DNA of 64,000 nt, taken from IMG/VR virus record IMGVR_UViG_3300042350_003419, positions 17,975-81,974 of that record. The stretch is one strand, 5' to 3'. The stretch comes from a virus. The translations under genes were made by a program, and so were the position numbers. Below are positions 13,224 to 32,876 of the stretch, piece by piece. Every line of letters starts with the position of its first letter. Position 1 is the stretch's first letter. The notes under the pieces are model-generated. The model was not told where the DNA came from and did not search any database. It saw only the letters and a program-made list of their open reading frames with translations.

Positions 13224-13679
13224 ATGAGCTATGAGAACCCATGGAAGTTTAATGGGGAAATCTTTGAGTCTCAGCATATAGGAGATTATTTTGGATTCGT
13301 ATATCTCATATCCTGTAAGACCACCGGTAGAAAATATATTGGACGTAAGTATCTTTGGCAGTTTAGAACACCAAAAGGAAAAAAAAGAAAAGTAAAGTCT
13401 GAATCAGATTGGAAAAATTATTATGGTTCTTGTCCTGAACTTAAGGAAGATATTACGAAATATGGTAAGGAATGTTTTGAAAGAAAAATAATATCATTAC
13501 ATAAAACCAAAGGTAAATGTAATTTTGAAGAAACACGACAACTGTTCCTAAATAATGTACTGACCGAATCGCTTGACACTGGAGTTCCTGCATACTACAA
13601 TAGTAACATACTCTCCAGATATTTTAGAAAGGATTATTTTGATGGAAACTTTGGAACAGACACTTCGGTCATCACATGA
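13224..13679 (+). CDS. GIY-YIG-like endonuclease (Seg-type)
   Basis: 151 aa. The motifs FVYLI (about 25) and GRKYIGRK (about 35-42) correspond to the GIY and YIG elements; a basic stretch (RTPKGKKRKVK) and a SDWKNYYGS segment follow, as in small free-standing phage GIY-YIG nucleases. A homing role is inferred from family; the target is unknown. Its 3' end overlaps the next small gene by 38 nt. Confidence 0.75.
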   Translation: MSYENPWKFNGEIFESQHIGDYFGFVYLISCKTTGRKYIGRKYLWQFRTPKGKKRKVKSESDWKNYYGSCPELKEDITKYGKECFERKIISLHKTKGKCNFEETRQLFLNNVLTESLDTGVPAYYNSNILSRYFRKDYFDGNFGTDTSVIT

Positions 13680-13818
13680 TTGGGCAATTGAACGAATTCA
13701 TTATTTGAGTGAGATGGATATTGATAATGCATATGCGATTCAATCGGAATTTAGTGAGTGGTTGAATCCTGATATTCCAGAGCATGATATTTTTTCATTA
13801 GAATACCTAGGAGATTAA
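13642..13818 (+). CDS. Small acidic protein (58 aa)
   Basis: ATG at 13642 is preferred over an upstream non-ATG start, which would overlap the nuclease gene more deeply. The product is helical and acidic without recognisable motif. It ends 1 nt before the peptidase gene, so it probably belongs to the same transcript. Confidence 0.55.
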   Translation: METLEQTLRSSHDWAIERIHYLSEMDIDNAYAIQSEFSEWLNPDIPEHDIFSLEYLGD

Positions 13819-13819
13819 A

Positions 13820-14533
13820 ATGCGAATAGATCTTCATAACTTTTTTAAGCATTATGACGAAAATAACCCAAAGCATGTTGCAGCAGTAGAGCAACTTGAA
13901 GTGGATCTTGCGGACAAGAATCCTGATTTGATTGATGATACTTCAAACTGGGTTCGTATTTTCAGAACAAGACCAGTTTACGGAACAAAACCAGCAGATC
14001 CCGGTGTTCTTAATGTTCCTTACTACCCACAAACAGATAATTACAGAGATGCTCAAAGAACCTGTAATTCATCTGCTTGTGCGATGTGTTTAGAATACTT
14101 TAAACCAGGGACTCTTCAGGGAACAAAGGGTGATGACTCTTATATTCAAAAAGTATTTGCAATTGGTGACACCACTGATCATACCGTTCAGACAAAAGTT
14201 CTGGAAGGTTATGGAATTAAGTCACACTTTAGTTATAATCTTTCTTTTGCTGATCTTGATCGTGAGCTTGCTGCTGGGAGACCCGTTGTTATCGGGATCT
14301 ATCACAGGGGCACTCTATCTGCTCCTTCTGGTGGGCACATGGTTGTAGTGATTGGTAAGAGGGGTGAAGATTATGTGGTAAATGATCCTTATGGTTCTCT
14401 GAATGATGGATATACTGGTCCCGCAACAAATGGTAAGGGTGCCGTCTATAAGAAGTCTGATCTGATGTATCGTTGGTTGGAGAAAGGAAAAGATAAGACT
14501 GGATGGGGAAGGATCTTTAATGTAAAAAAGTAG
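13820..14533 (+). CDS. C39-like peptidase domain protein (0-frame product)
   Basis: 237 aa. Peptidase_C39_2-like papain fold: candidate nucleophile Cys82 in RTCNSSACAM, His173 in GGHMVVV and Asn188/Asp189 in VNDPYG. No signal peptide. Such domains cleave peptides, including cell-wall cross-links in endolysin contexts. The gene stops at TAG 14531-14533 directly after an A_AAA_AAG slippery heptamer, and a GH24 lysozyme continues in the -1 frame. It is therefore probably both a stand-alone product and the N-terminal half of a 393-aa fusion. Confidence 0.85.
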   Translation: MRIDLHNFFKHYDENNPKHVAAVEQLEVDLADKNPDLIDDTSNWVRIFRTRPVYGTKPADPGVLNVPYYPQTDNYRDAQRTCNSSACAMCLEYFKPGTLQGTKGDDSYIQKVFAIGDTTDHTVQTKVLEGYGIKSHFSYNLSFADLDRELAAGRPVVIGIYHRGTLSAPSGGHMVVVIGKRGEDYVVNDPYGSLNDGYTGPATNGKGAVYKKSDLMYRWLEKGKDKTGWGRIFNVKK

Positions 14534-14564
14534 AAAGTTCTATTCTGAAAGAAGGAATAGAACT
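14524..14564 (+). promoter_or_regulatory. Putative programmed -1 frameshift signal
   Basis: Slippery heptamer A_AAA_AAG (14524-14530) in the correct phase for the peptidase frame, immediately followed by its TAG. After a 5-nt spacer comes a perfect 10-bp hairpin (AGTTCTATTC 14536-14545 with GAATAGAACT 14555-14564, 9-nt loop). These are the two canonical elements of -1 ribosomal frameshifting, at conventional spacing. Slippage would carry ribosomes into the lysozyme frame at GTA 14530. A single-base sequencing loss in the A6 run is the main alternative. Confidence 0.75.
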
Positions 14565-15000
14565 AATCAAAGAATTTGAAGGATGTCATTTAAAGGCATA
14601 CCCAGATCCTTTAACTGGAGGACTTCCAATTACGATTGGATGGGGAAGTACAAGAGACTTTAATTACACTCCATTTAAAAGAGATAAAGTCATTACTCAA
14701 GAGTATGCTGACCGTCTGTTAGAGCACGATGTATTGAATCGTTTTCTTCCTAAAATTTCTAAAATTCCCTATTGGGGTGAGATGAATGATAATCAAAGAG
14801 GAGCATTGCTCTCTTTTGCTTATAATCTTGGTGCTGATTTTTTTAACGCTCCTGGATTCAATACGATTACCAAAAAGTTAAAAGAAAAAGATTGGAAAGC
14901 AATTCCGGCAACTTTGGAAATGTATCGCAATCCTGGTAGTAAAGTGGAGGCAGGATTGAGAAGAAGACGAATTGCAGAAGGAAAACTCTGGGTGTCTTAA
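14530..15000 (+). CDS. GH24 (T4-type) lysozyme domain, expressed by -1 frameshift
   Basis: 156 codons in the -1 frame. The GH24 catalytic pattern is intact: Glu in KEFEGCH (fusion residue 254), Asp in AYPDP (263) and Thr in ITIGWG (272), then the usual helical core and a C-terminal GLRRRR segment. It would hydrolyse peptidoglycan at the end of infection. There is no ATG, GTG or TTG in this frame between the preceding stop (14518-14520) and the end of the catalytic motif. The first TTG, at 14734, would remove all three catalytic residues, so the domain is expected only as a fusion to the C39-like peptidase. Confidence 0.8.
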   Translation, partial: VESSILKEGIELIKEFEGCHLKAYPDPLTGGLPITIGWGSTRDFNYTPFKRDKVITQEYADRLLEHDVLNRFLPKISKIPYWGEMNDNQRGALLSFAYNLGADFFNAPGFNTITKKLKEKDWKAIPATLEMYRNPGSKVEAGLRRRRIAEGKLWVS

Positions 15001-15188
15001 CTTTTTTCTTGATTATGAATCCAAATCTTTAAGTCTTTTACATACTTCCGTAATATTTCTGCTTGCATTAAGTGCCATTCATCCCCTGTCTTAATATATG
15101 TCTTGATGTGCTCGTCGATAGCATCAAGACATTTTTTAATGACAGGATTCCATGGTTCTCTAATTGGAGTGTTCCACTCTCTTGACAT
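14997..15188 (-). CDS. Small conserved-looking protein on the minus strand (63 aa)
   Basis: Well-formed helical, Trp-containing protein convergent with the lysozyme, sharing 4 nt at the stops. A minus-strand late promoter TATAAATA (15209-15216) lies 20 nt upstream of its ATG, which argues strongly that it is real. No domain recognised. It is the only clear minus-strand gene in the window. Confidence 0.6.
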   Translation of the reverse strand: MSREWNTPIREPWNPVIKKCLDAIDEHIKTYIKTGDEWHLMQAEILRKYVKDLKIWIHNQEKS

Positions 15189-15208
15189 TGGAGATAATGC
15201 GGACTCTG

Positions 15209-15216
15209 TATTTATA
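15209..15216 (-). promoter_or_regulatory. T4-type late promoter on the minus strand
   Basis: The reverse complement of 15209-15216 reads TATAAATA and points towards the 63-aa minus-strand gene. Confidence 0.65.
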
Positions 15217-15239
15217 GGACACTTTACAAACTGTCATAC

Positions 15240-15268
15240 TTGACAAACACTAAATATTAACTTATTAT
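15240..15268 (+). promoter_or_regulatory. Sigma70-type promoter
   Basis: TTGACA (15240-15245), 17-nt spacer, TATTAT (15263-15268). The expected transcript begins near 15275 with a CCCTG/CAGGG hairpin and leads to the 15399 gene through a ~125-nt untranslated region with no recognised element. Confidence 0.65.
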
Positions 15269-15398
15269 GAAGAAATCCCTGTTATGAGCAGGGTAATTAT
15301 TATGAGTCTTTGATCGTGACAATTAGAGCCGTGGAAGGTGCCTTTTGAGAAAGAGGTGGACCCCCCTTCTATACGGATGCCGAATTCAATTAAACTTA

Positions 15399-16046
15399 AT
15401 GCTTAAAAACCTAACAAATGTAACCGTAGCGATTTTGGGTGCGGTTGCAACATCAGCGGCAACACTGCCAGCACCGAGTATGGCAACATCTTCAGCACTA
15501 CAACCGCCTTTCGCAATTGTTCCTGAAGGTCCTACTCAAGAGACAGAGACCAAAGAGGTTGTTCCCGAAAAACCTAAAGTAAAACGATTAGTTTGTAAAG
15601 GATGTAATACTAATGAGTCCCGTACTCTGGAATTCTTACAGAAACGAGGAATCAGTGACAAAAACGCCCTAGCAACCATTATGGGCAATATCCGACAAGA
15701 ATCTACCTTCACTCCTAATATCTGTGAAGGTGGTGCTAGAGTGCCTTATCACCAGTGTAGGAGTGGTGGGGTAGGAATACTCCAATGGACAAATGCTCCA
15801 AGATATTATGGTCTTGGTAAGTTTGCCGCTCGTATTGGGGGAGACCCTTCCACACTTGATACTCAATTGCAATATATGATGTATGAAGGTGATTGGAAGA
15901 TGATTGAGAATCAAATGAAAACACCTGGCAAATCCATTAATGATTATATGAGACTTGCTAAAAAATGGATACGTTGGGGGCATCATGGTGCCAGAACTGA
16001 CTTTGCTTATAATTATGCCAACCGACTGATCCTAGCAGAAGTTTGA
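15399..16046 (+). CDS. Exported lysozyme-like protein (Phage_lysozyme2-type)
   Basis: 215 aa. ATG 15399 is chosen because it starts directly at a signal-peptide-like segment (residues 1-29: Lys, hydrophobic core, Ala-rich cleavage zone); an upstream start would put 18 unrelated residues before it. After a Pro/Glu-rich linker (40-65), residues about 75-210 resemble tail-lysozyme domains: NALATIMGNIRQES with a candidate catalytic Glu, then GGVGILQWT. Likely peptidoglycan hydrolase acting outside the membrane. It overlaps no other gene and is closed by a terminator. Confidence 0.75.
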   Translation: MLKNLTNVTVAILGAVATSAATLPAPSMATSSALQPPFAIVPEGPTQETETKEVVPEKPKVKRLVCKGCNTNESRTLEFLQKRGISDKNALATIMGNIRQESTFTPNICEGGARVPYHQCRSGGVGILQWTNAPRYYGLGKFAARIGGDPSTLDTQLQYMMYEGDWKMIENQMKTPGKSINDYMRLAKKWIRWGHHGARTDFAYNYANRLILAEV

Positions 16047-17324: not shown

Positions 17325-17397
17325 GTCCCGTTAGCTCAGGAGACAGAGCAATTCTCTTCTAAAGAATCGGTCGTGGGTGCGAATCCTACACGGGACG
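17325..17397 (+). tRNA. tRNA-Arg(TCT)
   Basis: Acceptor GTCCCGT/ACGGGAC, anticodon arm ATTCT-CTTCTAA-AGAAT giving TCT. CCA is not encoded. Confidence 0.9.
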
Positions 17398-17422
17398 CTT
17401 TCGAATAATGCTATATTACTTG

Positions 17423-17430
17423 TATAAATA
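17423..17430 (+). promoter_or_regulatory. T4-type late promoter TATAAATA
   Basis: Exact motif 22 nt before the ATG of the 32-aa gene at 17452. Confidence 0.7.
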
Positions 17431-17451
17431 AACACACTTAGGTCGAAAACA

Positions 17452-17550
17452 ATGTCTTTCCAAATGAACAAACAGATTATTACCAGCGATTGCCGCTATT
17501 GGCATATCGAGGGTACTCCCCTGTTTGCGAATATGGAAAAACATATGTAA
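17452..17550 (+). CDS. Microprotein (32 aa) behind its own late promoter
   Basis: Short soluble peptide, too small for domain assignment. It is supported by an exact late promoter upstream and a strong terminator downstream, forming a complete single-gene unit within the tRNA region. Confidence 0.45.
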   Translation: MSFQMNKQIITSDCRYWHIEGTPLFANMEKHM

Positions 17551-17576
17551 GATGTAATCCATAAAAGCAAAAGAAA

Positions 17577-17610
17577 GGGGAGAGAAACCAAAAGTTTTCT
17601 CCCCTTTTTT
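17577..17610 (+). terminator. Intrinsic terminator
   Basis: 7-bp stem GGGGAGA / TCTCCCC with a T6 run. The ~120 nt after it (17611-17732) contain a GTGGT/ACCAC hairpin and a weak TCGACA-17-TTATAT promoter (17704-17732) before tRNA-Lys; no gene is seen there. Confidence 0.8.
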
Positions 17611-17732
17611 ATTGCCTGTGACAGTTTCCTAAGTGTCCACCAATCTCCCCCCAGAGACCAAACGGTGATATTCTTAAAGGGTGGTTGAGAGACCACCAGC
17701 ACATCGACAACCGAATATTTTCCACATTATAT

Positions 17733-17805
17733 GGGTCTGTAACTCAGTTGGTAGAGTAGCGGGCTTTTAACCTGTAAGTCGTCGGTTCGATCCCGACCAG
17801 ACCCA
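17733..17805 (+). tRNA. tRNA-Lys(TTT)
   Basis: Acceptor GGGTCTG/CAGACCC; anticodon loop CTTTTAA. Confidence 0.92.
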
Positions 17806-17809
17806 TCGT

Positions 17810-17891
17810 GGGAGGATTTCCGAGTGGCTAAAGGAATCTGACTGTAAATCAGACGGCTCTGCCTTCGCAGGTTCGAATCCTGCTCCTCCCA
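17810..17891 (+). tRNA. tRNA-Tyr(GTA)
   Basis: Class II tRNA with a long variable arm; acceptor GGGAGGA/TCCTCCC, anticodon loop CTGTAAA. Confidence 0.92.
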
Positions 17892-17895
17892 CCTT

Positions 17896-17969
17896 GACCC
17901 ATTAGTGTAGCGGTCTATCACGCCACCCTGTCACGGTGGAGATCACGGGTTCAAATCCCGTATGGGTCG
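17896..17969 (+). tRNA. tRNA-Asp(GTC)
   Basis: Acceptor GACCCAT/ATGGGTC; anticodon arm CCACC-CTGTCAC-GGTGG. Confidence 0.92.
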
Positions 17970-18017
17970 TTGCTACTCTGCCTATGGAGTGTTCCTCCTT
18001 GGCGGTTGTAGCATCAA

Positions 18018-18089
18018 GTTCCTATCGACTAGCGGTTAGGTCACTACCCTTTCAAGGTGGCAGCACGGGTTCGAATCCCGTTAGGAATA
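18018..18089 (+). tRNA. tRNA-Glu(TTC)
   Basis: Acceptor GTTCCTA/TAGGAAT with a G-T first pair; anticodon loop CTTTCAA; T arm ACGGG/CCCGT. Confidence 0.9.
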
Positions 18090-18093
18090 CTAT

Positions 18094-18166
18094 GGAAACA
18101 TAGCTTAGTTGGTAAAGCATTCGACTGATAATCGAAAGACCACTGGTTCGAGTCCAGTTGTTTCCA
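18094..18166 (+). tRNA. tRNA-Ile(GAT)
   Basis: Acceptor GGAAACA/TGTTTCC; anticodon loop CTGATAA. Confidence 0.92.
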
Positions 18167-18168
18167 TT

Positions 18169-18258
18169 GGAAGTGTGGCAGAGTGGCTTAATGCAGCGGT
18201 TTGCTAAACCGCCGATGTCTTTAAGAGGCATCCGTTGGTTCAAATCCAACCACTTCCG
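18169..18258 (+). tRNA. tRNA-Ser(GCT)
   Basis: Class II tRNA of 90 nt; acceptor GGAAGTG/CACTTCC, anticodon loop TTGCTAA. Confidence 0.92.
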
Positions 18259-18262
18259 CCTC

Positions 18263-18334
18263 AGCAGTATAGCTCAGTGGTAGAGTACGGGTTTCATACG
18301 CCTATGGTCGGTAGTTCAAATCTACCTACTGCTA
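18263..18334 (+). tRNA. tRNA-Met(CAT)
   Basis: Acceptor AGCAGTA/TACTGCT; loop TTCATAC gives CAT. The anticodon stem is weak (two G-T pairs and one mismatch). The A-T first pair argues against an initiator; elongator Met and Ile-decoding CAT cannot be separated here. Confidence 0.85.
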
Positions 18335-18335
18335 T

Positions 18336-18406
18336 GTGTCGTTAGTCTAATGGTAAGACAGGAGATTGTGGTTCTCTGTATGAGGGTTCGATTCCCTCAC
18401 GGCACC
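18336..18406 (+). tRNA. tRNA-His(GTG)
   Basis: Acceptor GTGTCGT/ACGGCAC, loop TTGTGGT, discriminator C as expected for His. Confidence 0.9.
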
Positions 18407-18410
18407 CCAT

Positions 18411-18482
18411 TCTGAGGTCGCCAAGTGGTAAGGCAGCGGGTTTTGGTCCCGCCATTCGTGGGTTCGAATCCTACCCTCAGAA
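18411..18482 (+). tRNA. tRNA-Gln(TTG)
   Basis: Acceptor TCTGAGG/CCTCAGA; loop TTTTGGT. Confidence 0.9.
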
Positions 18483-18485
18483 TTT

Positions 18486-18559
18486 GTCCTCTTAGCTCAG
18501 TGGAATAGAGCAATCGGCTACGAACCGATGTGTCGTAGGTTCAAATCCTACAGAGGACG
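18486..18559 (+). tRNA. tRNA-Arg(ACG)
   Basis: Acceptor GTCCTCT/AGAGGAC; anticodon arm ATCGG-CTACGAA-CCGAT. Confidence 0.92.
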
Positions 18560-18560
18560 C

Positions 18561-18589
18561 TTGACAAACTTCTTAAAGTTTGTTACTAT
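18561..18589 (+). promoter_or_regulatory. Sigma70-type promoter inside tRNA cluster
   Basis: TTGACA (18561-18566), 17-nt spacer, TACTAT (18584-18589). An 8-bp inverted repeat ACAAACTT / AAGTTTGT (18564-18583) fills the spacer. Confidence 0.65.
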
Positions 18590-18602
18590 ATAAATTGTTG
18601 GA

Positions 18603-18647
18603 GGTTAAGTCCCTGTTATGTCCTTATGAGATATATTACACTTAACC
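18603..18647 (+). ncRNA. Hairpin element A preceding tRNA-Ala
   Basis: 45-nt two-helix element: outer 8-bp helix GGTTAAGT/ACTTAACC, inner 6-bp helix TATGTC/GATATA and a 7-nt loop CTTATGA. It ends 6 nt before tRNA-Ala. A second copy with paired substitutions occurs at 18762-18806, which supports selection on RNA structure. The function is unknown. Confidence 0.55.
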
Positions 18648-18653
18648 CATCTT

Positions 18654-18726
18654 GGGGAATTAACTCAGTTGGTAGAGTATCGCCTTTGCAAGGCGGGTGT
18701 CAGGAGTTCGAGTCTCCTATTCTCCA
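18654..18726 (+). tRNA. tRNA-Ala(TGC)
   Basis: Acceptor GGGGAAT/ATTCTCC; anticodon loop TTTGCAA. Confidence 0.92.
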
Positions 18727-18761
18727 TTGGAGATTTATTCTCCATATATAAAAGTGATAGA

Positions 18762-18806
18762 GCGTAAGTCCCTGTTATATCCTTATGAGGTATATCACAC
18801 TTATGC
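18762..18806 (+). ncRNA. Hairpin element B preceding tRNA-Asn
   Basis: Second 45-nt copy: outer GCGTAAGT/ACTTATGC, inner TATATC/GGTATA, identical loop CTTATGA. Relative to element A, outer pair 2 changes G-C to C-G, outer pair 3 T-A to G-T, inner pair 4 G-T to A-T and inner pair 5 T-A to T-G; all remain paired. It ends 6 nt before tRNA-Asn. Confidence 0.55.
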
Positions 18807-18812
18807 CATCAT

Positions 18813-18884
18813 TCCGAGTAGCCCGCAAGGTGCGGGAGCAAACTGTTAATTTGTTATAGGTCAGTTCGATTCTGACACTCGGAG
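18813..18884 (+). tRNA. tRNA-Asn(GTT)
   Basis: Acceptor TCCGAGT/ACTCGGA; anticodon loop CTGTTAA. Confidence 0.92.
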
Positions 18885-18909
18885 TTTTACCCTTGAAATA
18901 TGCTATTAT

Positions 18910-18917
18910 TATAAATA
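18910..18917 (+). promoter_or_regulatory. T4-type late promoter TATAAATA
   Basis: Exact motif 21 nt before the HNH endonuclease ATG. Confidence 0.75.
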
Positions 18918-18938
18918 GTAATAAAATATTTGTAGGGT

Positions 18939-19499
18939 ATGTCTAATAAAAAAGCAGTTTCTGATTATAGAAGAAGAGCAAAAGAATATGCTTTAAAAGC
19001 ATTTAAAGAAAAATGTGGAATATGTGGATATAATAAATGTATCGGGGCATTAGAGTTTCATCACTTAAATCCTGATGAAAAAGATTTTGGTTTATCTTCA
19101 AAAGGAGTAACTCGTGCTTGGAGTAAAGTTTCTGATGAACTCAAAAAATGTGTTTGTCTTTGTGCTAACTGTCACAGAGAAGTTCATAATGATATTACCA
19201 GTATTCCAGATGATGTGGTAAGATTTGATGAGGAATATACTATTTGGAAAAGTGAGTTTACTAAAAAAATGATTCCTTGTCCAGTATGTAATTCTGAAAT
19301 GTCTATTAGGCAGAAATATTGCTCTGATAAATGTGCTAAAAAGGTTAGAGAAAAGGCAAACTATCCAAGTGATGAAGAACTTTTAGAAATGGTTAAAAGT
19401 TATGGTTATTCTCATACTGGTAGAGTTTTTGGTGTAAATGGAAATTCTATTAAAAAAAGATTACAGCGACGAGGACTATTGACAACTACGTCAAAATAA
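18939..19499 (+). CDS. HNH endonuclease (186 aa)
   Basis: The N-terminal HNH module has zinc-binding CGICG and the motif EFHHLNPDEKDF (first His pair), then CLCANCHREVHND completing the HNH/zinc knuckle. A second Cys cluster (CPVCN...YCSDKCAKK) lies at about 117-134. A C-terminal helix-turn-helix-like tail (about 145-182) probably contacts DNA. Free-standing HNH genes inside tRNA arrays are common mobile elements in T-even-like phages. It lies between tRNA-Asn and tRNA-like remnants and has its own late promoter. Confidence 0.85.
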   Translation: MSNKKAVSDYRRRAKEYALKAFKEKCGICGYNKCIGALEFHHLNPDEKDFGLSSKGVTRAWSKVSDELKKCVCLCANCHREVHNDITSIPDDVVRFDEEYTIWKSEFTKKMIPCPVCNSEMSIRQKYCSDKCAKKVREKANYPSDEELLEMVKSYGYSHTGRVFGVNGNSIKKRLQRRGLLTTTSK

Positions 19500-19500
19500 T

Positions 19501-19666
19501 GTAACATATATAAGTCGGTTCTGGGTGGAACTCCCAGAAGTTCCGTTAGGGACTGTCCTTTGTAGGTTCGATACCTACATCTTCCTTATGGGAGATAAGA
19601 ACGGCTACTGGAAACCTTACTAAATCCTAAGTTTTCTTAGGTCGGGGATTTGATCACCCCCGTGTT
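19501..19666 (+). pseudogene. tRNA-like remnants
   Basis: A clean T arm GTAGG-TTCGATA-CCTAC (19562-19578) and a CTGGG/CCCAG stem (19521-19537) are present. No 5' acceptor partner for the sequence after the T arm is found, and a second CGGGG/CCCCG arm near 19633-19662 also lacks a complete cloverleaf. I read this as decayed tRNA gene(s) next to the HNH gene. Leu, Phe, Trp and Cys are the isoacceptors missing from the array. Confidence 0.35.
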
Positions 19667-19737
19667 GCCCTATAAGCATTGTGGTGATGCAGCAGTTTTG
19701 TAAACTGCAGAGAACAGTTCAATTCTGTTATGGGGCT
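19667..19737 (+). tRNA. tRNA-Thr(TGT)
   Basis: Acceptor GCCCTAT/ATGGGGC; anticodon arm GCAGT-TTTGTAA-ACTGC. Confidence 0.9.
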
Positions 19738-19765
19738 TGACATAATACTCATTATGTCATATACT
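19737..19765 (+). promoter_or_regulatory. Sigma70-type promoter overlapping the tRNA-Thr end
   Basis: TTGACA (19737-19742), 17-nt spacer, TATACT (19760-19765); the first T is the tRNA-Thr discriminator. The spacer holds an inverted repeat CATAAT/ATTATG. It could drive tRNA-Gly; 19766-19815 otherwise shows only a GGGAG/CTCCC hairpin. Confidence 0.6.
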
Positions 19766-19815
19766 TCATATGTCCGTGTGAAGGCAAGTGCCGGGAGAGT
19801 CAAATCTCCCACATT

Positions 19816-19887
19816 GCGGATTTAATTCAGTGGTAGAATGGCTGCCTTCCAAGCAGTTCGTCAGGGGTTCGAATCCCCTAATCCGCT
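19816..19887 (+). tRNA. tRNA-Gly(TCC)
   Basis: Acceptor GCGGATT/AATCCGC; anticodon arm CTGC-CTTCCAA-GCAG. Confidence 0.92.
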
Positions 19888-19945
19888 TGCTCCATAATTC
19901 CTGGAGCTTCTAAATAAACACTGTAGTTGTAAATCTTAACACAAT

Positions 19946-20830
19946 ATGACTTTTCAAAATATTATTGCTGCCGGTGTAGTTGCTGCGTCTTCTATCGCTT
20001 CTCCTGCAATGGCACAAGTCACCAGCGTTAAGCAACTGGGTGATGTTCAACCCACCCAGTGGTCTTATCAAGCAATCACTAATCTGGTAGAGCGTTACGG
20101 TTGTGTTGCTGGTTATCCTGATGGCACTTTCCGTCCCGGTCAACCTGCTACTCGTGCTGAACTTGCTGCTCTGACGAATGCCTGCCTTGACCGCATTAGT
20201 GAGTATCAAACCGCTGCTGATGCTGCTCTTGCCGCTGCCCTGCGTGCTGAATTCTCTAAAGAGATTGCTGCAACCAATACTCGTGTGAGTGCTCTTGAGG
20301 TTGCTGCTGCTCAAAAGGCACAAGGAGTTGGTAACTATCTAGGTGTTGGTGTGCTTCTCGATCAGCAAGGTGTTGCTGGCAATGGTTACAGTGCTCAGCG
20401 TACTGTTTCTGGTGCCACGATTCAAGCACGATATGCCGTGAAGAACTTCACTAATCTGAATGCTGTTTCGGTCCGCCCCTATGCCAACCTTGTTGGTAGT
20501 CCTGCTGGTCAAATCGGTGCTGGTGGTGGTGCTCTGGTTTCCTATGATTGGAGTATTTCCCGTGCCAAGAGTGGTGTGAGTCGTGCCAATGTGTATGCTG
20601 GTGCTGGTTATCAGATTCCTTTCGTGAATGAAACTGCTGCTAACTATCAGTCTGCTGTCGGCAATCGTGGTCAATTTGTTCTTGCTCTTGGAGTCGAAGG
20701 TCGTATCAGCAATTCACTCGTTGGTTTTGCTGACCTGAAGTTCCCTACCACCAATTCTGCTAACAGTTACGGTGCTACCAATGGAACTTACTCACCAGTC
20801 TTCACTACTGGTCTTGGTTTCAAGTTCTGA
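19946..20830 (+). CDS. SLH-domain porin-like outer membrane protein
   Basis: 294 aa. A signal peptide (residues 1-24, ending AMAQ) is followed by one SLH domain (about 27-85, with GYPDGTFRPGQPATRAEL), a short Ala-rich coiled segment (about 88-120) and a C-terminal region of alternating beta strands ending in Phe. This is a shortened version of the cyanobacterial SLH-coil-barrel porin plan. Codon use is richer in G/C than in the neighbouring sugar genes, suggesting a host-derived gene. It probably inserts in or lines the host outer membrane. TCTAAATA at 19908 is a possible late promoter. Confidence 0.75.
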   Translation: MTFQNIIAAGVVAASSIASPAMAQVTSVKQLGDVQPTQWSYQAITNLVERYGCVAGYPDGTFRPGQPATRAELAALTNACLDRISEYQTAADAALAAALRAEFSKEIAATNTRVSALEVAAAQKAQGVGNYLGVGVLLDQQGVAGNGYSAQRTVSGATIQARYAVKNFTNLNAVSVRPYANLVGSPAGQIGAGGGALVSYDWSISRAKSGVSRANVYAGAGYQIPFVNETAANYQSAVGNRGQFVLALGVEGRISNSLVGFADLKFPTTNSANSYGATNGTYSPVFTTGLGFKF

Positions 20831-20853
20831 TATTTGAATACATAGTGTGAATT

Positions 20854-20879
20854 GGGGAGTTGACAACGACTCCCCTTTT
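20854..20879 (+). terminator. Terminator containing the next promoter's -35
   Basis: GGGGAGTTG / CGACTCCCC stem (20854-20862 with 20867-20875) with an ACAA loop and a T4 run. The -35 TTGACA (20860-20865) lies in its upper stem and loop. Confidence 0.7.
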
Positions 20880-20888
20880 CAGTATAAT
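20860..20888 (+). promoter_or_regulatory. Consensus sigma70-type promoter embedded in a terminator
   Basis: TTGACA (20860-20865), 17 nt, TATAAT (20883-20888), both hexamers perfect. The spacer is the 3' arm and T-run of the preceding terminator. Drives 20910 onwards. Confidence 0.8.
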
Positions 20889-20909
20889 AAGTATCGAGTC
20901 AGGAGGATT

Positions 20910-21068
20910 ATGTCTCTTATATCCCAAATGGACCGCCAAATGGTTATTGAAGCACTTGAATATTACGTTCAGAAACTCAAAGAAGATAACTGCACCGAGA
21001 ATTCTATTACTGCATTTCAAACACTTCTTAATTGGATAGAACTGGAGTATTATAAGAATGAAAATTAA
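20910..21068 (+). CDS. Small helical protein (52 aa)
   Basis: The start is fixed by the promoter (-10 at 20883) and AGGAGG at 20901-20906; an upstream frame extension would begin before the promoter. Mostly helical, with Trp/Tyr near the end. Function unknown. Overlaps the next gene by 11 nt. Confidence 0.6.
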   Translation: MSLISQMDRQMVIEALEYYVQKLKEDNCTENSITAFQTLLNWIELEYYKNEN

Positions 21069-21222
21069 TTTGTGGTTCTGCTCCGAAATGAATCATTGGA
21101 GGTGGACTCTCTGCGATAGTTCTCGTCCAATTCGTAAACAGGAATCTGGGCAAAGAGAAAATCTCCGTGATGCTATGAGCGATATTGCCAATACTGTAGA
21201 GTATATGCTAGGATCTCATTGA
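21058..21222 (+). CDS. Small protein (54 aa), overlapping gene
   Basis: Starts inside the preceding gene and ends 7 nt before tRNA-Val. It has a Trp-rich N-terminus (NHWRWTLCDSS) and a helical C-terminus. No recognised domain. Supported by the coupled start and its position downstream of a consensus promoter. Confidence 0.5.
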   Translation: MKINLWFCSEMNHWRWTLCDSSRPIRKQESGQRENLRDAMSDIANTVEYMLGSH

Positions 21223-21229
21223 TTTTATT

Positions 21230-21302
21230 GCCCGATGACCCAGCAAGTGAAGGGACCTGATTTACACTCAGACATCGACGGGAGCATTACCTGTATCGGG
21301 CA
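21230..21302 (+). tRNA. tRNA-Val(TAC) with atypical T loop
   Basis: Acceptor GCCCGAT/ATCGGGC is perfect; anticodon arm CCTGA-TTTACAC-TCAGA gives TAC. The T stem ACGGG/CCTGT is present, but its loop reads AGCATTA instead of TTCRANY, so standard tRNA searches may score it low. Confidence 0.75.
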
Positions 21303-21307
21303 CTTAT

Positions 21308-21315
21308 TATAAATA
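21308..21315 (+). promoter_or_regulatory. T4-type late promoter TATAAATA
   Basis: Exact motif 20 nt before the Dps-like gene. Confidence 0.75.
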
Positions 21316-21334
21316 CTTGAAAAGTATTGGTGTA

Positions 21335-21769
21335 ATGGAAAAACTTTATAAATTATTAAGTGATACTCAAGCATCACTTTTTTTGCTATTCCAAAAAACC
21401 TGGGTCTATCACTGGCATGTTGTAGGACCAGACTTTAAGCAAATTCATGATTTGTTTGGAGATCAATATGAAGCAATTCAAGAAGAAGTTGATCGTATAG
21501 CAGAACATATGAGATTTTTGGGTATTAAACCTATCAGCTCTTTATCTAGAGTTCTGGAAGTCTCTGGTGTTGGGGAAGCAAAAACTAATATTTCTGAAAT
21601 GGAAATGATTAAAGATTTACTTGATGGGCATAAAAAGATTATAGATATGTTAGGTGAAGTTGCTGAAGAAGCAGAAGCACAAAAGTCAAGAGGAACTGTT
21701 AATCTTGTTGATGATTTAAATGAAGCACACGGTAAGTTCGTTTGGATGCTTCGTTCATTTACTGAATAA
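21335..21769 (+). CDS. Dps/ferritin-like protein
   Basis: 144 aa, the usual Dps size. The ferroxidase-type pattern is visible at about 21-58: HWHVVGPDFKQIHDLF followed by Y-x6-E-x2-D and AEHMRFLG. Dps proteins bind DNA and/or oxidise and store iron, protecting DNA from peroxide. The ATG at 21335 is preferred to an upstream TTG, because the late promoter ends at 21315 and the message should start just after it. This is a late-expressed stress gene in a phage that also carries a peroxiredoxin. Confidence 0.8.
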   Translation: MEKLYKLLSDTQASLFLLFQKTWVYHWHVVGPDFKQIHDLFGDQYEAIQEEVDRIAEHMRFLGIKPISSLSRVLEVSGVGEAKTNISEMEMIKDLLDGHKKIIDMLGEVAEEAEAQKSRGTVNLVDDLNEAHGKFVWMLRSFTE

Positions 21770-21781
21770 TTAATTGTAAAG

Positions 21782-22042
21782 ATGGAAAATTTAAAAATTA
21801 GATGTAAATCTTGCGGAAGTGAGATAGAAGGAAAGTCTGGAAAAACAGTTGCGTGTGGATGCCCTAATATGGCAACTGTTCGTAATAATGAAAATATTGC
21901 GGCACTTGACTTATCAAAGGTTGTCATAATAAACTATATGAGTACCAAAGAGAAATCTAATGTTCTTACTAATGAAGACCTTGCCTTTCAAGAAGCAAGG
22001 CGTCGGCGTAAAGTAAGACGCTTAGATTTTGAAGTCCGATAA
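21782..22042 (+). CDS. Small zinc-ribbon protein (86 aa)
   Basis: CKSCGSE (residues 8-14) and ACGCPN (about 29) form a likely zinc ribbon; the C-terminus is strongly basic (RRRRKVRR). Small ribbon proteins of this kind are conserved in cyanophages; function unknown. It ends 10 nt before tRNA-Ser(TGA). Confidence 0.7.
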   Translation: MENLKIRCKSCGSEIEGKSGKTVACGCPNMATVRNNENIAALDLSKVVIINYMSTKEKSNVLTNEDLAFQEARRRRKVRRLDFEVR

Positions 22043-22052
22043 GGACTTATTT

Positions 22053-22135
22053 GGAGAGAGTCCGGTTGGTCGAGGACACCGCCTTGAAAGCGGCTGGGTT
22101 TAAAAGCTTCGCAGGTTCGATTCCTGTTCTCTCCG
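22053..22135 (+). tRNA. tRNA-Ser(TGA)
   Basis: Class II tRNA, acceptor GGAGAGA/TCTCTCC, anticodon loop CTTGAAA. Confidence 0.92.
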
Positions 22136-22193
22136 TTACAAATGCTACAAAATTTTAGATTTTTTTAATCTATATTTTTGTATCAACACATAG

Positions 22194-22221
22194 TTGACAT
22201 TTGCAAAATACTTACTAAGAT
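22194..22221 (+). promoter_or_regulatory. Sigma70-type promoter overlapped by a perfect palindrome
   Basis: TTGACA (22194-22199), 16-nt spacer, TAAGAT (22216-22221). A 10-bp perfect inverted repeat ATACTTACTA / TAGTAAGTAT (22208-22234) straddles the -10 and likely start site. Confidence 0.65.
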
Positions 22222-22249
22222 AACTAGTAAGTATCAAACTAAATTCCCA

Positions 22250-22402
22250 ATGGATGATCACACTTACCAAAATTGGGTGAAAATTAAAGCAACCTTTGAA
22301 AACTCTGGTAATACTGACAATACATTTTACCGAAGAGCGTGTGAAATAGTCAAAACCAAAAAAGATCCTCTCGCAAAGTATCTTGGAGATAAGAATGACT
22401 AA
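22250..22402 (+). CDS. Small protein (50 aa)
   Basis: Start set by the promoter just upstream; the frame extends further upstream but would begin before the -35. Basic, helical, no recognised domain. Overlaps the next microprotein by 8 nt. Confidence 0.55.
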   Translation: MDDHTYQNWVKIKATFENSGNTDNTFYRRACEIVKTKKDPLAKYLGDKND

Positions 22403-22481
22403 CACACTTATAGTTGCTGTTATTCTTCTCGGATTAATTTCATTCTTCATTCAGTGGAGTCTTACGCACGCATATGGATAA
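22395..22481 (+). CDS. Single-pass membrane microprotein (28 aa)
   Basis: One hydrophobic helix (residues 4-20) and a short polar tail; overlaps both neighbours by 8 nt, typical of coupled phage early operons. No family recognised. Confidence 0.5.
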   Translation: MTNTLIVAVILLGLISFFIQWSLTHAYG

Positions 22482-22659
22482 GCAAAGATATAGTTTCGCT
22501 ATGACTTGCTTTGTAAGGTCTTATGGCAGACATGTCTTGAATGATAATCACATCAAACAGTTTTGTAGGGAATGGTCTGAATGGGGGGTAGATGCTCCAT
22601 TAGGCGATATTGTAGATCAATACTTCCATTATGAATATAAGAATTGGAGAGGAATATGA
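22474..22659 (+). CDS. Small protein, paralogue of the 46341 gene (61 aa)
   Basis: Pattern SFAMTCFVRSYG at the start and YKNWRG at the end matches the spacing and residues of the 68-aa protein at 46341 (FIMSSFARTYG ... YENWEG). Helical, with several Trp residues. Function unknown. ATGA overlap with the next gene. Confidence 0.6.
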   Translation: MDKQRYSFAMTCFVRSYGRHVLNDNHIKQFCREWSEWGVDAPLGDIVDQYFHYEYKNWRGI

Positions 22660-22778
22660 TTTTTCACATTGTGGAATATCTGGCACAAAGTCCAGTTTGG
22701 TTGGGTCTTTGTGGGGCAGGATTGACAGTTGCCCCGATTATGGGTATAATGCTTATACACAAACAAAATGGTAAGTAA
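22656..22778 (+). CDS. Membrane microprotein (40 aa)
   Basis: Hydrophobic segment at about 13-35 with Gly/Ala/Trp, short polar ends. It overlaps the preceding stop by 4 nt. No family recognised. Confidence 0.5.
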   Translation: MIFHIVEYLAQSPVWLGLCGAGLTVAPIMGIMLIHKQNGK

Positions 22779-22812
22779 CTTGTTTTGAGATAATCCCGAA
22801 ACTTATTACTTT

Positions 22813-22820
22813 TATAAATA
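22813..22820 (+). promoter_or_regulatory. T4-type late promoter TATAAATA
   Basis: Exact motif 27 nt before the second HNH gene. Confidence 0.75.
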
Positions 22821-22846
22821 GTTATAAGAAAAGGTTTTTATCTTTT

Positions 22847-23401
22847 ATGAAAAGGCATACCACTAAAGAACAACTTTTGAGTGCTTGTGTAGGATCAAAT
22901 GGTCCAGCACAAGTTTTAAAAAAGTTAGGTTTGTGTGAAAATGGAGCAACTCGTGCTTATCTTAAAAAAATTGCTTTGCAATATGATGTAGAAATACCAA
23001 AGTATGAAACTCCAAGAAAATATGAATTAATTGAAAAAAAATGCCCTGTTTGTGGTAAAATATTTACAGCATCAAAGGGTAACAAAAGAGAAAAAACAGT
23101 TTGTTCTCGTGCCTGCTCTAATACACATTTTAGAAGCGGGGAAAATAATCCAAACTTTAAAGATGGATTTGATGGTGATAAAGCATATAGAAAAATATGC
23201 TTCAAATATCATCCAAAAAAATGCTGCATTTGTGGATTTGATCACATTGTTGAAGTTCATCATATGGACTGTAACAAGGAAAATAATAACCCAAATAATT
23301 TAATTCCTCTGTGCCCAAATCACCATAGAATGTTTCATTCAAGATATCGTCAGTTAGTATCTCCACTAATTGAAGACTATATAAAATATAACCAGGAGTA
23401 A
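22847..23401 (+). CDS. HNH endonuclease (184 aa) running into tRNA-Pro
   Basis: A Cys4 knuckle (CPVCGKIF ... CSRAC, about 65-90) precedes a SGENNPNFKDG segment typical of HNH homing enzymes. The nuclease core at about 126-165 is CCICG-x-HIVEVHHMD-x-CNKENNNPNNLIPLCPNHHRMFH. The N-terminal ~45 residues look like a helix-turn-helix. The last codons and stop (23392-23401) lie inside tRNA-Pro, so the gene is inserted flush against, and overlapping, a tRNA. It has its own late promoter. Confidence 0.85.
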   Translation: MKRHTTKEQLLSACVGSNGPAQVLKKLGLCENGATRAYLKKIALQYDVEIPKYETPRKYELIEKKCPVCGKIFTASKGNKREKTVCSRACSNTHFRSGENNPNFKDGFDGDKAYRKICFKYHPKKCCICGFDHIVEVHHMDCNKENNNPNNLIPLCPNHHRMFHSRYRQLVSPLIEDYIKYNQE

Positions 23402-23463
23402 GTCAGCGGTAGACGGCACCGTTTGGGGCGGTGAAGACGTTGGTTCGATCCCAACCTTCTGGA
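23392..23463 (+). tRNA. tRNA-Pro(TGG)
   Basis: Acceptor CCAGGAG/CTTCTGG; anticodon arm CACCG-TTTGGGG-CGGTG. The first 10 nt double as the end of the HNH coding region. Confidence 0.9.
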
Positions 23464-24459: not shown

Positions 24460-25461
24460 ATGAAAGTTGCTTTAATTTCTGGGATCACGGGGCAAGATGG
24501 TTCATATCTTGCCGAACTTCTTTTGGAAAAAGGATATGAAGTTCACGGTATTATTCGTCGTGCCTCCCAAATCAATACGCAAAGAATAGATCATATTTAC
24601 AATCAAATTAAGTTGCATTATGGAGATCTTACTGACTCTACAAATCTTGTGAGAGTTATTCAGCAAGTTCAACCCGATGAAATATATAATCTAGGTGCTC
24701 AAAGTCACGTAAAGGTTTCTTTTGAGATGCCTGAATATACTGGTATGGTTGATGGTCTTGGAACTCTTCGTATTTTAGAATCAGTTCGTCTTCTTGGAAT
24801 GGAAAATAAGACTCGTATCTATCAAGCATCAACATCAGAAATGTTTGGTAAAGTACAAGAAATTCCTCAAAAAGAAACCACGCCTTTTTATCCTCGTTCA
24901 CCTTATGGAGTTGCAAAAGTCTATGGATACTGGATTACAAAAAACTACAGAGAATCTTACGGACTACACGCAAGTTCTGGAATTCTTTTCAATCACGAAT
25001 CCCCTAGAAGAGGAGAAACTTTTGTCACAAGAAAAATCACTAGAGGATTATCACGCATTTCAGTTGGGGAACAAGATATACTATATCTCGGGAATTTAAA
25101 TGCCAAGAGGGACTGGGGACACGCCAGGGACTTTGTAGAGGCGATGTGGTTAATGCTTCAGCAGGATGAACCTGATGACTATGTAATCGCCACAGGAGAG
25201 CAGTATTCGGTGCGTGAGTTCGTTGAGGAAGCAGCACCCTATTTTGGAATGAAGATTGCTTGGGAAGGTGAAGGACTTGATGAAGTTGGATATGATACTT
25301 ATTCTGGAAACCAAGTCATTCAGGTCAATCCTAAATATTTTAGACCTGCTGAAGTAGAGACTTTATTAGGTGATGCCACTAAGGCAAAGAAAAAATTAGG
25401 TTGGGAACCTAAAATTTTATTTAAACAATTAGTTGAGGATATGTGCATTTATGGACAATAG
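24460..25461 (+). CDS. gmd: GDP-mannose 4,6-dehydratase
   Basis: 333 aa short-chain dehydrogenase/reductase converting GDP-mannose to GDP-4-keto-6-deoxymannose. The Rossmann motif [12 protein letters not shown] is at the start; TSEMFGK and SPYGVAK supply the Thr/Ser, Glu, Tyr and Lys of the catalytic set; [17 protein letters not shown] is the Gmd-specific nucleotide-sugar segment. Full length. First gene after the promoter and partner of the fucose synthase two genes downstream. Confidence 0.95.
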
Positions 25462-26701
25462 TATGTTTCATAAAATAGAAAAATGTAGAGTCTGTGGTAA
25501 TGAACATTATTCCACAGTTTTAGACCTGGGAAATCAATATCTATCTGGAATTTTTCCAAAATCTATAGATTTTGATATGTATCGTGGTCCCTTAAAACTT
25601 GTTAAGTGTGATGAATTAACGGGTGGATGTGGGCACGTTCAATTGGAGCATACCTTTGATCTTCCTACGATGTATGGGGAAGAATATGGGTATCGTTCTG
25701 GATTAAATGCCAGTATGGTAAAACATCTAAAATCTAAGTGTGAAAAAATTTCTAATTTTCTTGATCTAAAAGAAAATGATATTGTGATTGATATTGCCGG
25801 AAATGATGGAACATTCCTTGGATTCTTTTCACCAGAATTAAAACTGGTAAGTATTGATCCAACTTCTAAAAAGTTTTCAAAGTATTTCAAAGAACATGTA
25901 GATTATATCGCAGACTTTTTTACTGAAAAAACTTTTAGACAATTCTTTGGAGATTTTAATGCAAAGTTAGTAACTTCATTTTCAATGTTCTATGACTTAG
26001 AAGATCCTTGTCAGTTTGCTAAAGAGGTTAATTCTATTTTAGATCCCGAAGATGGAATTTGGGTTTTGGAGCAGAGTTATATGCCTGAGATGCTTCGTGC
26101 AAATTCTTTTGATACTGTATGCCATGAGCATCTATCATATTATGGAATGCGACAACTAAAATACATCATGGATCAGGCAGGATTGAAGATTATTGATTTT
26201 GAATTTAATGATGTAAATGGTGGAAGCATTTCACTTGTAGTTGCAAATAAAGACAGTAAATATGAAGAGGCAACTCAAATGTTAAATGATCTTCTTCAAG
26301 AAGAATTGGATCTTAAACTTAACACTACTGAACCTTGGAATGATTTTTCTTTCCGCATTGAAGAATGTAGAATTAAGTTTTGGCAACTTATTAACAAGTG
26401 TAAAGAAGATGGATTAAAAATTGCTGCCCTTGGAGCTAGTACAAAGGGTAATGTAACACTTCAAACTTGGGGGGTTACTAATGATGATATTACTGTTGTA
26501 GGTGAAGTTAATCCTGATAAAGATGGATCATTTACACCAGGAACTTGGATACCAATTAGAAATGAAGATTCTGTAATTGAAGAATATGATATTTTTATAA
26601 TTCTTCCTTGGCACTTTAAAAATTTCTTTATTAATAGTACAAAGTTCAAAGGTAAAAAATTATTGTTCCCACTCCCCAATGCCGAAATTGTAATTCCTTA
26701 A
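25451..26701 (+). CDS. NDP-sugar C-methyltransferase-like protein
   Basis: About 416 aa. The N-terminal zinc-binding module ([16 protein letters not shown]) is followed by a SAM-binding Rossmann domain ([12 protein letters not shown], about 108-120) and a C-terminal domain ([11 protein letters not shown], about 331), the three-part plan of TDP-sugar C-methyltransferases. In this cluster it probably methylates a deoxysugar nucleotide. The start is either ATG 25451 (overlapping gmd) or ATG 25463. Confidence 0.85.
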
Positions 26702-26705
26702 TATC

Positions 26706-27641
26706 ATGAAAAAACAATCTAAAATATTTGTTGCGGGACACCGAGGACTTGTTGGATCTGCCATTGTGAGAAACTTAAAAGAAAATGGATATACAAATAT
26801 TCTTACTAAAACTCGTCAAGAGTTGGATCTTTTAAATCAAAAAGATGTTCTTGATTTTTTTGAAGATCAAAAACCAGAGTATGTTTTTGATGCAGCTGCC
26901 CGTGTTGGTGGTATCTATGCAAATGATACATTCTCTGGAGATTTTATCTACGAGAACATACAAATTCAAACTAATTTGATTAATAGTTCTTATAGATCTG
27001 GTGTAGAAAAGTTCTTATTTCTTGGATCTGTTTGCATCTATCCCAAGTTTGCTGAAGTCCCGGTTAAAGAGGAATCTCTTCTTACTGGATATCTTGAACC
27101 AACAAATGATGCTTATGCTATAGCAAAGATATCTGGAATTAAAATGCTTCAGGCATATAATAAACAGTATGGATTTAAAGGAGTCTCACTAATGCCATCG
27201 AATCTTTATGGTATTGGAGATAATTTTCATCCAGATAATGGTCATGTAATTCCGGCAATGATGACAAAATTTAATAACTCAAATGGAAAATCTGTAACTT
27301 TTTGGGGAGATGGTACTCCAATGCGAGAATTTCTTTATTCTGATGACCTTGCGGATGCTTGTTTATTTGCGATGGATAATTTTGAGAATGCTGAATTGAT
27401 TAATGTTGGATCTGGAGAAAATATTAGTATTAAGAATTTAGCACAAACTGTAGCATCTGTTGTTGGTTATACTGGTGAAATTGAATGGGATACTTCTCGT
27501 CCGAATGGTACTCCAAACAGACCATTGGATTGTTCAAAAATGACAAATTTTGGATGGAAACCAAAATATACTTTATATGATGGATTGAAAAAAACCTATC
27601 AATGGTTTATAGAAAATTCCCACCATGATTCCTTAAAATAA
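26706..27641 (+). CDS. fcl: GDP-L-fucose synthase
   Basis: 311 aa epimerase/reductase completing GDP-L-fucose synthesis from the Gmd product. The NADPH motif GHRGLVGSAI, AARVGGIYAN, GSVCIYP and the catalytic YAIAK, plus the family-typical NLYGIGDNFHPDNGHVIPA segment, are all present. Shares one base with the next gene. Confidence 0.95.
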   Translation: MKKQSKIFVAGHRGLVGSAIVRNLKENGYTNILTKTRQELDLLNQKDVLDFFEDQKPEYVFDAAARVGGIYANDTFSGDFIYENIQIQTNLINSSYRSGVEKFLFLGSVCIYPKFAEVPVKEESLLTGYLEPTNDAYAIAKISGIKMLQAYNKQYGFKGVSLMPSNLYGIGDNFHPDNGHVIPAMMTKFNNSNGKSVTFWGDGTPMREFLYSDDLADACLFAMDNFENAELINVGSGENISIKNLAQTVASVVGYTGEIEWDTSRPNGTPNRPLDCSKMTNFGWKPKYTLYDGLKKTYQWFIENSHHDSLK

Positions 27642-32142: not shown

Positions 32143-32876
32143 AAAAATTCGCAGTTTGTTTTTCGGGATATCCAAGATTCGTGAGAGAGTGTTTGGATAG
32201 TATTAAAAAAAATTTTTTAGATGGGTTGGGTGAATATGATGTTTATGCTAATTTTCAATGGAATGATGATTGGCAGAATACTTTAATACATCATGAATTT
32301 ACAGACAAGTACGAAAAAAATGAATTGAGTGAATTCATTGAATTATATTCTCCATTAAATCTTAAAGATGTAAAAGTAATTCAACCATATAATTTTGACA
32401 CTTCATTTTACAATAAATTATCTGCTGAACCAGATATGGTTTTTGAAACAATTGAGAAAAGTAGAAGTCAATTTTATAGATCTAAATGTCAGTATCAAGG
32501 AATTTTGGATTGTGTTAAATTAGTTGATCCTAATGAATACGAGTTTATTGTAAGAATTAGAACTGATAATATTTTTGGTACTGAATTAAATTTCAGTCAG
32601 TTAGAATCGGATCATATTCTTTGTCAAGATGGATATGAAGCTGGTTGGGATAGACATTATGCTGATTGGTTTTTTATTGTTCCAACTAGTCAAGTTAATT
32701 TCTTTTATGACTTAGCAAATGTGGAAGAACATTATAAAGATGGAATTATACATATGCATAAACTTATAGAAAATGTTGGAAAACCATATAATATTCAACA
32801 TTATCAATTTAATATAACCACTACATCAATTTGTAGTTATAAAAATACTAAAAATTTTTTGGAGATTAAAAGATGA
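32139..32876 (+). CDS. Putative glycosyltransferase, LSGQPR family copy 2
   Basis: 245 aa. N-terminal FAVCFSGYPRFV and mid-protein FIVRIRTDN are variants of the same motifs as in copies 1 and 3; overall similarity outside these is modest. Overlaps both neighbours by 4 nt. Confidence 0.6.
   Translation: MKKFAVCFSGYPRFVRECLDSIKKNFLDGLGEYDVYANFQWNDDWQNTLIHHEFTDKYEKNELSEFIELYSPLNLKDVKVIQPYNFDTSFYNKLSAEPDMVFETIEKSRSQFYRSKCQYQGILDCVKLVDPNEYEFIVRIRTDNIFGTELNFSQLESDHILCQDGYEAGWDRHYADWFFIVPTSQVNFFYDLANVEEHYKDGIIHMHKLIENVGKPYNIQHYQFNITTTSICSYKNTKNFLEIKR

Follow-up and report, generated by a model that had tools for sequence, protein, structure and literature searches.

A covarying hairpin behind a conserved slippery heptamer points to programmed -1 frameshifting in a cyanophage peptidase-lysozyme endolysin

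How can a phage make a lysozyme from a reading frame that has no start codon ahead of the catalytic residues? Little is known of the lysis enzymes of T4-like cyanophages, and a start-less lysozyme escapes ordinary gene calling. The question is raised by a 64,000-nucleotide stretch of DNA (hereafter, the window) from an 82-kb IMG/VR virus contig (IMGVR_UViG_3300042350_003419) with T4-like cyanophage-type genes, including ribonucleotide reductase. At the endolysin locus, the nearest relatives of the window are the Synechococcus phages S-SRM01 and S-PM2. Here, the open reading frame (ORF) of a C39-like peptidase ends in GTA AAA AAG TAG and overlaps a GH24 lysozyme in the -1 frame (Table 1). The -1 frame is open from position 14521 and contains the codons for the catalytic E, D, and T at 14578, 14605, and 14632, and its first ATG, GTG, or TTG is a TTG at 14734, downstream of all three. 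The original prediction, made from the sequence of the window, was that an in-phase A_AAA_AAG heptamer directly precedes the peptidase TAG, that no start codon precedes the catalytic residues of the lysozyme, and that a 237-aa peptidase and a 393-aa fusion are encoded; the first two claims were borne out by the coordinates, and the lengths by ORF arithmetic (237 + 156), with GTA (14530-14532) as the codon that would follow re-pairing.

Table 1. Positions of the features discussed in the text (window coordinates unless a locus is named)
Feature	Position	Strand	Remark
Peptidase ORF, 0-frame	13820-14533 (coding 13820..14530)	+	237 aa, C39-like cysteine peptidase
N-terminal helical domain of peptidase	residues 1-50		
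AGGA, Shine-Dalgarno-like	14510-14513	+	10 nt upstream of heptamer
Slippery heptamer A_AAA_AAG	14524-14530	+	-1 phase, simultaneous slip possible
-1 frame GH24 lysozyme	14530..15000	+	156 aa (P0001) plus stop
0-frame stop TAG	14531-14533	+	adjoins 3' side of heptamer
Hairpin 5' arm	14536-14546	+	spacer of 5 nt after heptamer
Hairpin 3' arm	14554-14564	+	within lysozyme codons G-I-E-L
Phage tRNA-Lys, anticodon UUU	17732-17807	+	would read and re-pair on both heptamer codons
Truncated "lysin" annotations (S-PM2, S-CAM7)	L003 2457-2675; L009 2254-2526; L197 2199-2417		lack catalytic part

The peptidase part matched PF13529 (E = 5.8e-14) and carries the C39-like Cys/His/Asp motifs TCNSS, GGHM, and NDPYG. 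The lysozyme part is a predicted enzyme that matched the whole profile of PF00959 (GH24; E = 1.5e-23), with its catalytic Glu, Asp, and Thr in the motifs FEG, YPD, and PITIG. On PHROG 3617, a family of 405 positions, the peptidase covered positions 1-235 (E = 7.7e-89) and the lysozyme positions 247-404. A structure search with a fused homologue returned matches to C39-like and papain-like structures. The AlphaFold model of a natural fusion (L161), which was of medium confidence (pLDDT 74), supports three separate parts (N-terminal, peptidase, and lysozyme) and a linker of low confidence at residues 239-248, and is read here at that level of detail only. A scan of bacterial genomes with the fused protein found no host copies of the endolysin.

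Several other genes of the window were recorded alongside. A second cell-wall enzyme candidate (15402-16046, + strand; PF18013 Phage_lysozyme2, E = 2.9e-17; PHROG 512), with a hydrophobic, signal-peptide-like N-terminus, lies 400 bp past the endolysin. Two genes upstream of the endolysin is a SegE-like GIY-YIG endonuclease gene (13224-13679, + strand; PF19835), and at the equivalent position of S-SRM01 a homing endonuclease lies on the opposite strand. The dense, overlapping genes at 24460-40598, which include NAD-dependent epimerases and a two-domain glycosyltransferase (GT4 plus GT6), are a sugar-nucleotide or glycan synthesis cluster in the phage. Three tandem ORFs, each of about 1,500 aa, occupy 49740-63578, and the first has a C-terminal Peptidase_S74 chaperone domain of the kind known from tail spikes and fibres.

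Four IMG/VR scans together with phage records provided 360 loci, which were reduced to 157 distinct peptidase-to-lysozyme junctions. The lysozyme lay in the -1 frame in 129 of these, was fused in frame in 24, and was separate in 4; it was found in the +1 frame in only two of the 157, both from the separate-gene group and with their own ATG. An in-phase X_XXY_YYZ heptamer was present in 117 of the 129 distinct -1 junctions (A_AAA_AAG in 114, T_TTT_TTT in 3), and the 12 with neither heptamer all had an overlapping start codon instead. The stop codon followed A_AAA_AAG directly in 96 of the 114 junctions and one codon further on in 18. Every distinct -1 junction without an overlapping start carried an in-phase heptamer (100 of 100; 97 A_AAA_AAG and 3 T_TTT_TTT), which means that the heptamer of the window is not a chance occurrence. 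The peptidases of the A_AAA_AAG set diverge to about 65% identity with that of the window, and both frames stay conserved protein families in Pfam. The window's heptamer and the following 40 nt recurred unchanged in another 15 loci, on 11 IMG/VR contigs other than that of the window, always with six A residues. Alignment across relatives, which had been proposed as a check on the original prediction, thus found the heptamer, the stop, and the hairpin kept together in highly diverged phages. A Shine-Dalgarno-like element about 10 nt before the heptamer was seen in only 20 of the 114 A_AAA_AAG junctions (control, 2 of 34), so the AGGA of the window would be an auxiliary element at most, and a conserved Shine-Dalgarno stimulator was rejected.

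The hairpin provides a further line of comparative evidence. A perfect stem of 10 bp had been predicted 5 nt past the heptamer; it is there, with 11 pairs if the closing U-G is counted with the 10 Watson-Crick pairs, and it folds at -13.6 kcal/mol, a z of -3.0 relative to dinucleotide shuffles. Of the 117 slippery junctions, 115 have a perfect stem of 5 bp or more after the heptamer (8 bp or more in 101), with a spacer of 2-8 nt in all of these 115 but one. The two stem-less slippery junctions, those of S-SRM01 and L108, both belong to the subset with an overlapping ATG. The 3' arm falls in the lysozyme codons immediately before a conserved L-I-K, and most stems occupy one of three registers, which are offset from each other by exactly one codon. 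The stems of slippery junctions have 76 different 5' arms. Sequences within one arm cluster are related to each other, and raw counts over the junctions are for this reason not independent. The hairpin arms differ between lineages yet stay complementary to their own partners; that is, they covary. In an arm-swap test among 12 arm clusters, none of 50,000 permutations reached the native pairing total. In a set of 28 sequences that share a single register, 5 of the 11 pairs had changed on both sides, giving 25 double-changed cells, which none of 500 shuffles reached, and 95.8% of the cells were paired, versus 32-51% when the register was slid; as this set was chosen by its stems, the shuffles and the arm swap are the fairer controls.

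Folding was also compared with synonymous recoding of the lysozyme frame. The mean z was -2.28 for frameshift junctions (n = 100), -1.07 for junctions with both a heptamer and an overlapping start, and -0.21 for the ATGA-overlap junctions that lack a heptamer (n = 8). Folding strength alone is not specific, because the in-frame fusions, several of which retain the former signal, also fold somewhat above the null (mean z = -1.18). The hairpin was considered as an intrinsic terminator and rejected: it is absent from the terminator-like sites and is without a T run. A search for known RNA elements at 13500-15500 returned, as its sole match below an E value of 1, a sub-threshold Alpha_RBS elsewhere, at 15046-15134.

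The arrangement is found in cultured phages. Both records of S-PM2 read GCA AAA AAG TAA, that is, A_AAA_AAG followed by TAA, with a start-less lysozyme in the -1 frame and an equivalent stem that differs in its letters from that of the window. Three isolates of S-CAM7 read GTT TTT TTT CCA CAG TAG, with an in-phase T_TTT_TTT, the lysozyme in the -1 frame, and a stem near the stop. The S-PM2 and S-CAM7 records list lysins of 73-91 aa that start inside the lysozyme, past its catalytic residues (Table 1), and PHROG 10457 (95 positions) matches the C-terminal part of the lysozyme only. Recognising the frameshift would correct a widespread annotation error and give the real endolysin as a peptidase-muramidase.

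Other phages have different arrangements of the same parts. The ACG-2014f isolates and their relatives encode both domains as one ORF (405 aa in ACG-2014f), and S-CREM1 has a single ORF with the two domains in reverse order. In DSL-LC02 and LC03 there are two genes, and the lysozyme gene has its own copy of the N-terminal domain of the peptidase (IDLHNFFK.YDE); the separate lysozyme genes at L005 2360-3031 and L007 2267-2935 have such a copy, which suggests that this domain may target or anchor the enzyme. The lysozyme is thus usually tied to the N-terminal domain; the exceptions are S-SRM01-type phages, in which the lysozyme has its own start. In S-SRM01 itself this start overlaps the stop, and the pair is annotated as two endolysins. 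Homologues with an ordinary start codon, which the original prediction had counted against itself, do exist but are the minority: an ATGA, GTGA, or TTGA overlap occurs in 29 of the 129 distinct -1 junctions, and 17 of the 29 keep the heptamer. A run of seven A residues, which would give a single intact frame, had been named as the other point against it. Here the prediction stood for the lineage of the window, with six A residues in every assembly seen, and did not extend to two related lineages, L261 and L283, which have in-frame A7 fusions. The L283 form was present in 5 loci from 4 contigs, A7 also occurs at L312-L315, and it may be either a real variant or a homopolymer error. Given these overlapping starts and A7 lineages, frameshifting is not the sole workable solution.

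On a tree of 131 peptidase sequences, whose root is not fixed, the frameshift state formed one large clade. Within it were scattered changes to an overlapping start, the two A7 in-frame fusions, and L151 and L161, two fused ORFs that still contain the heptamer. Junctions with T_TTT_TTT were nested within the in-frame fused clade, suggesting, subject to the placing of the root, a second and independent origin of the signal. Frameshift and true fusion have replaced each other repeatedly, which indicates, from the comparison of sequences, that the fused protein is probably functional and that the frameshift would be a regulated version of the fusion.

Could the frame break be an artefact of sequencing or assembly in the A run, or the mark of a decayed gene, so that the true sequence is one ORF? 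Homopolymers are error-prone, and A7 with an intact fusion does occur in the two lineages described above. However, six A residues with the frame break recur in 114 distinct junctions, in the 11 other assemblies of the window type, and in S-PM2; an error would bring neither a covarying hairpin nor the replacement of one heptamer by another in S-CAM7, and both frames are still conserved families. Conservation in 114 distinct junctions, and in two groups of cultured phages, refutes this explanation for the group, and we give it next to no probability for the locus. Slippage of RNA polymerase on the A run, rather than of the ribosome, would also restore the frame. A or T runs can serve this end (nine A residues in Thermus dnaX; PMC3711429, PMC5009743), S-CAM7 has a run of eight T residues, and two lineages have A7. 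Yet published bacterial cases use more than seven A or more than eight T residues (PMC3711429), whereas the run is six A residues closed by a G in 97 of 100 distinct junctions, and the phase is fixed as X_XXY_YYZ. Moreover, a covarying hairpin would not be conserved for polymerase slippage because, lying downstream, it is untranscribed at the moment at which the polymerase would slip. We therefore consider this a very improbable account.

Translation of the lysozyme as a separate chain, by termination-reinitiation or from a non-canonical start, has the 29 overlapping starts in its favour, as in S-SRM01, and coupled reinitiation is the accepted mechanism for the MS2 lysis gene (references cited in PMC5009743). 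Against it are the 100 distinct junctions that have no start overlapping the stop and all have the heptamer; a start codon lies 15 nt or less from the stop in just 5 of them. The region between the stop and the first conserved lysozyme residue varies in both length and sequence, which leaves no common non-canonical start site. In the window, where the first start codon lies past the catalytic residues, separate initiation was rejected, and for the system in general we judge two separately made chains highly unlikely. A related proposal concerns only the 17 distinct junctions that keep both the heptamer and an overlapping start: since both are kept, a free, self-started lysozyme may also be made there, giving three products (peptidase, fusion, and free lysozyme). 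The stem is kept in 15 of the 17, some stems are long (12 bp in L034, 13 bp in L145, and 11 bp in L062), and on the tree these junctions are interspersed with ordinary frameshift lineages. On the other hand, the stems of this subset are weaker on average (mean z = -1.07), S-SRM01 and L108 have none, and such weak or absent stems look as if frameshifting were being lost; the proposal is also inapplicable to the window. We regard three products as a tentative reading for the subset, with the odds against it. L034, L035, L062, L064, L098, L101, and L145, which combine A_AAA_AAG and a hairpin with an overlapping TTGA or GTGA start, are possible three-product genes.

Heptamer and hairpin conservation, the cultured phages, and the single-ORF fusions make error, pseudogene formation, separate initiation, and transcriptional slippage poor explanations. 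The comparative data strongly back the frameshift interpretation, and the cassette is very probably a programmed -1 ribosomal frameshift that yields two lytic proteins from one start codon. The original prediction of a peptidase and a peptidase-lysozyme is thereby supported by the conserved signal, the covarying hairpin, and the natural single-ORF fusions. In a large group of cyanophages, the lysozyme appears, judging by these sequences, to be made only through a -1 slip at the end of the preceding gene. We infer that slippage occurs and that most ribosomes would terminate at the TAG, releasing the 237-aa peptidase, while a fraction makes the fusion. The hairpin would hold the ribosome while the two tRNA-Lys on A_AAA_AAG re-pair one base back on AAA_AAA; translation would then continue as VESS..., yielding the 393-aa fusion with the GH24 lysozyme, at a dose set by the frameshift efficiency. 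Lacking an independent start, the lysozyme would occur solely as an extension of the peptidase with its N-terminal domain.

The slipping tRNA may be supplied by the phage. The window has 17 tRNA genes at 17325-23463, Lys(UUU) among them, and a functional link between this tRNA and the slippery site seems plausible. A freshwater Cyanobium MAG, which may not be the host of the window, had tRNA-Lys(UUU) and no CUU species among its 39 tRNA matches. Of the heptamers compared in E. coli, none shifts as readily as A_AAA_AAG with tRNA-Lys(UUU) as its sole reader, because tRNA-Lys(UUU) pairs weakly with AAG (PMC5009743). The frameshift would presumably serve to fix how much peptidase is made relative to the bifunctional endolysin; possible reasons for two products are such a fixed ratio, hetero-oligomers, and a dose-limited muramidase. 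A fuller model, in which the frameshift acts as a dosage and timing valve for lysis by setting the peptidase:fusion ratio, possibly within a hetero-oligomer (for which the stop and the heptamer would be retained), is tuned by the supply of the phage tRNA-Lys(UUU), and is supplemented by free lysozyme in the overlapping-start subset, is doubtful as a whole. Natural variation offers a set in which the signal has been gained, lost, and substituted (A_AAA_AAG, T_TTT_TTT, A7 fusion, single ORF, and overlapping start), and the reason for keeping two isoforms is thus testable in S-PM2 on Synechococcus WH7803.

The closest mechanistic likeness is to E. coli dnaX. The dnaX system shares the A_AAA_AAG heptamer, a hairpin a few nucleotides downstream, two products with a common N-terminus, and tRNA-Lys(UUU) as the slipping tRNA, which is proposed for the cyanophage case (PMC5009743, PMC3711429). 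Unlike in dnaX, where the shift leads to an early stop and a shorter product, here it would lead past the adjoining stop to a longer one; the upstream Shine-Dalgarno-like element is not conserved, and the genes are unrelated. As in the -1 frameshifts of IS elements and phage tail chaperones (lambda G/GT, SPP1 17.5), which set a product ratio, a downstream -1 ORF would be fused to the upstream ORF at an A- or T-rich heptamer (PMC6316719, PMC4066793); those cases make transposases and tail assembly chaperones, whereas the product here is a predicted cell-wall lytic enzyme.

With Lys170, CTP1L, LysIME-EF1, and Ply2638A, the cyanophage cassette would share the production of a full-length and a shorter endolysin from one gene (PMC12203907, PMC9430671, PMC4777826). 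Phage phi2638A needs both isoforms for lysis at the normal time, and phages with a single isoform lyse later (PMC12203907); this is the closest functional precedent for two endolysin isoforms. The Lys170 type, found mainly in phages of Gram-positive hosts, uses an in-frame internal start, and its short isoform is the C-terminal, wall-binding part. In contrast, the predicted short product of the cyanophages is the N-terminal catalytic peptidase, released at the stop, and the long one would arise by frameshifting. Searches of open-access literature brought up no paper recognised as describing a frameshifted endolysin; the words endolysin and cyanophage are absent from the consulted part of the main recoding review (PMC5009743), and frameshifting does not figure in a survey of two-polypeptide endolysins (PMC9430671). 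The nearest counterparts in composition are the single-ORF C39-GH24 endolysins of PHROG 3617 and ACG-2014f, which have the same two domains in the same order as the window; ACG-2014f has one ORF and the fusion only, whereas the stop and frameshift of the window would give two products. The dnaX-like -1 frameshift belongs to a well-known class of mechanism, but its use for an endolysin appears to be new and would extend the known roles of programmed frameshifting to a lytic enzyme.
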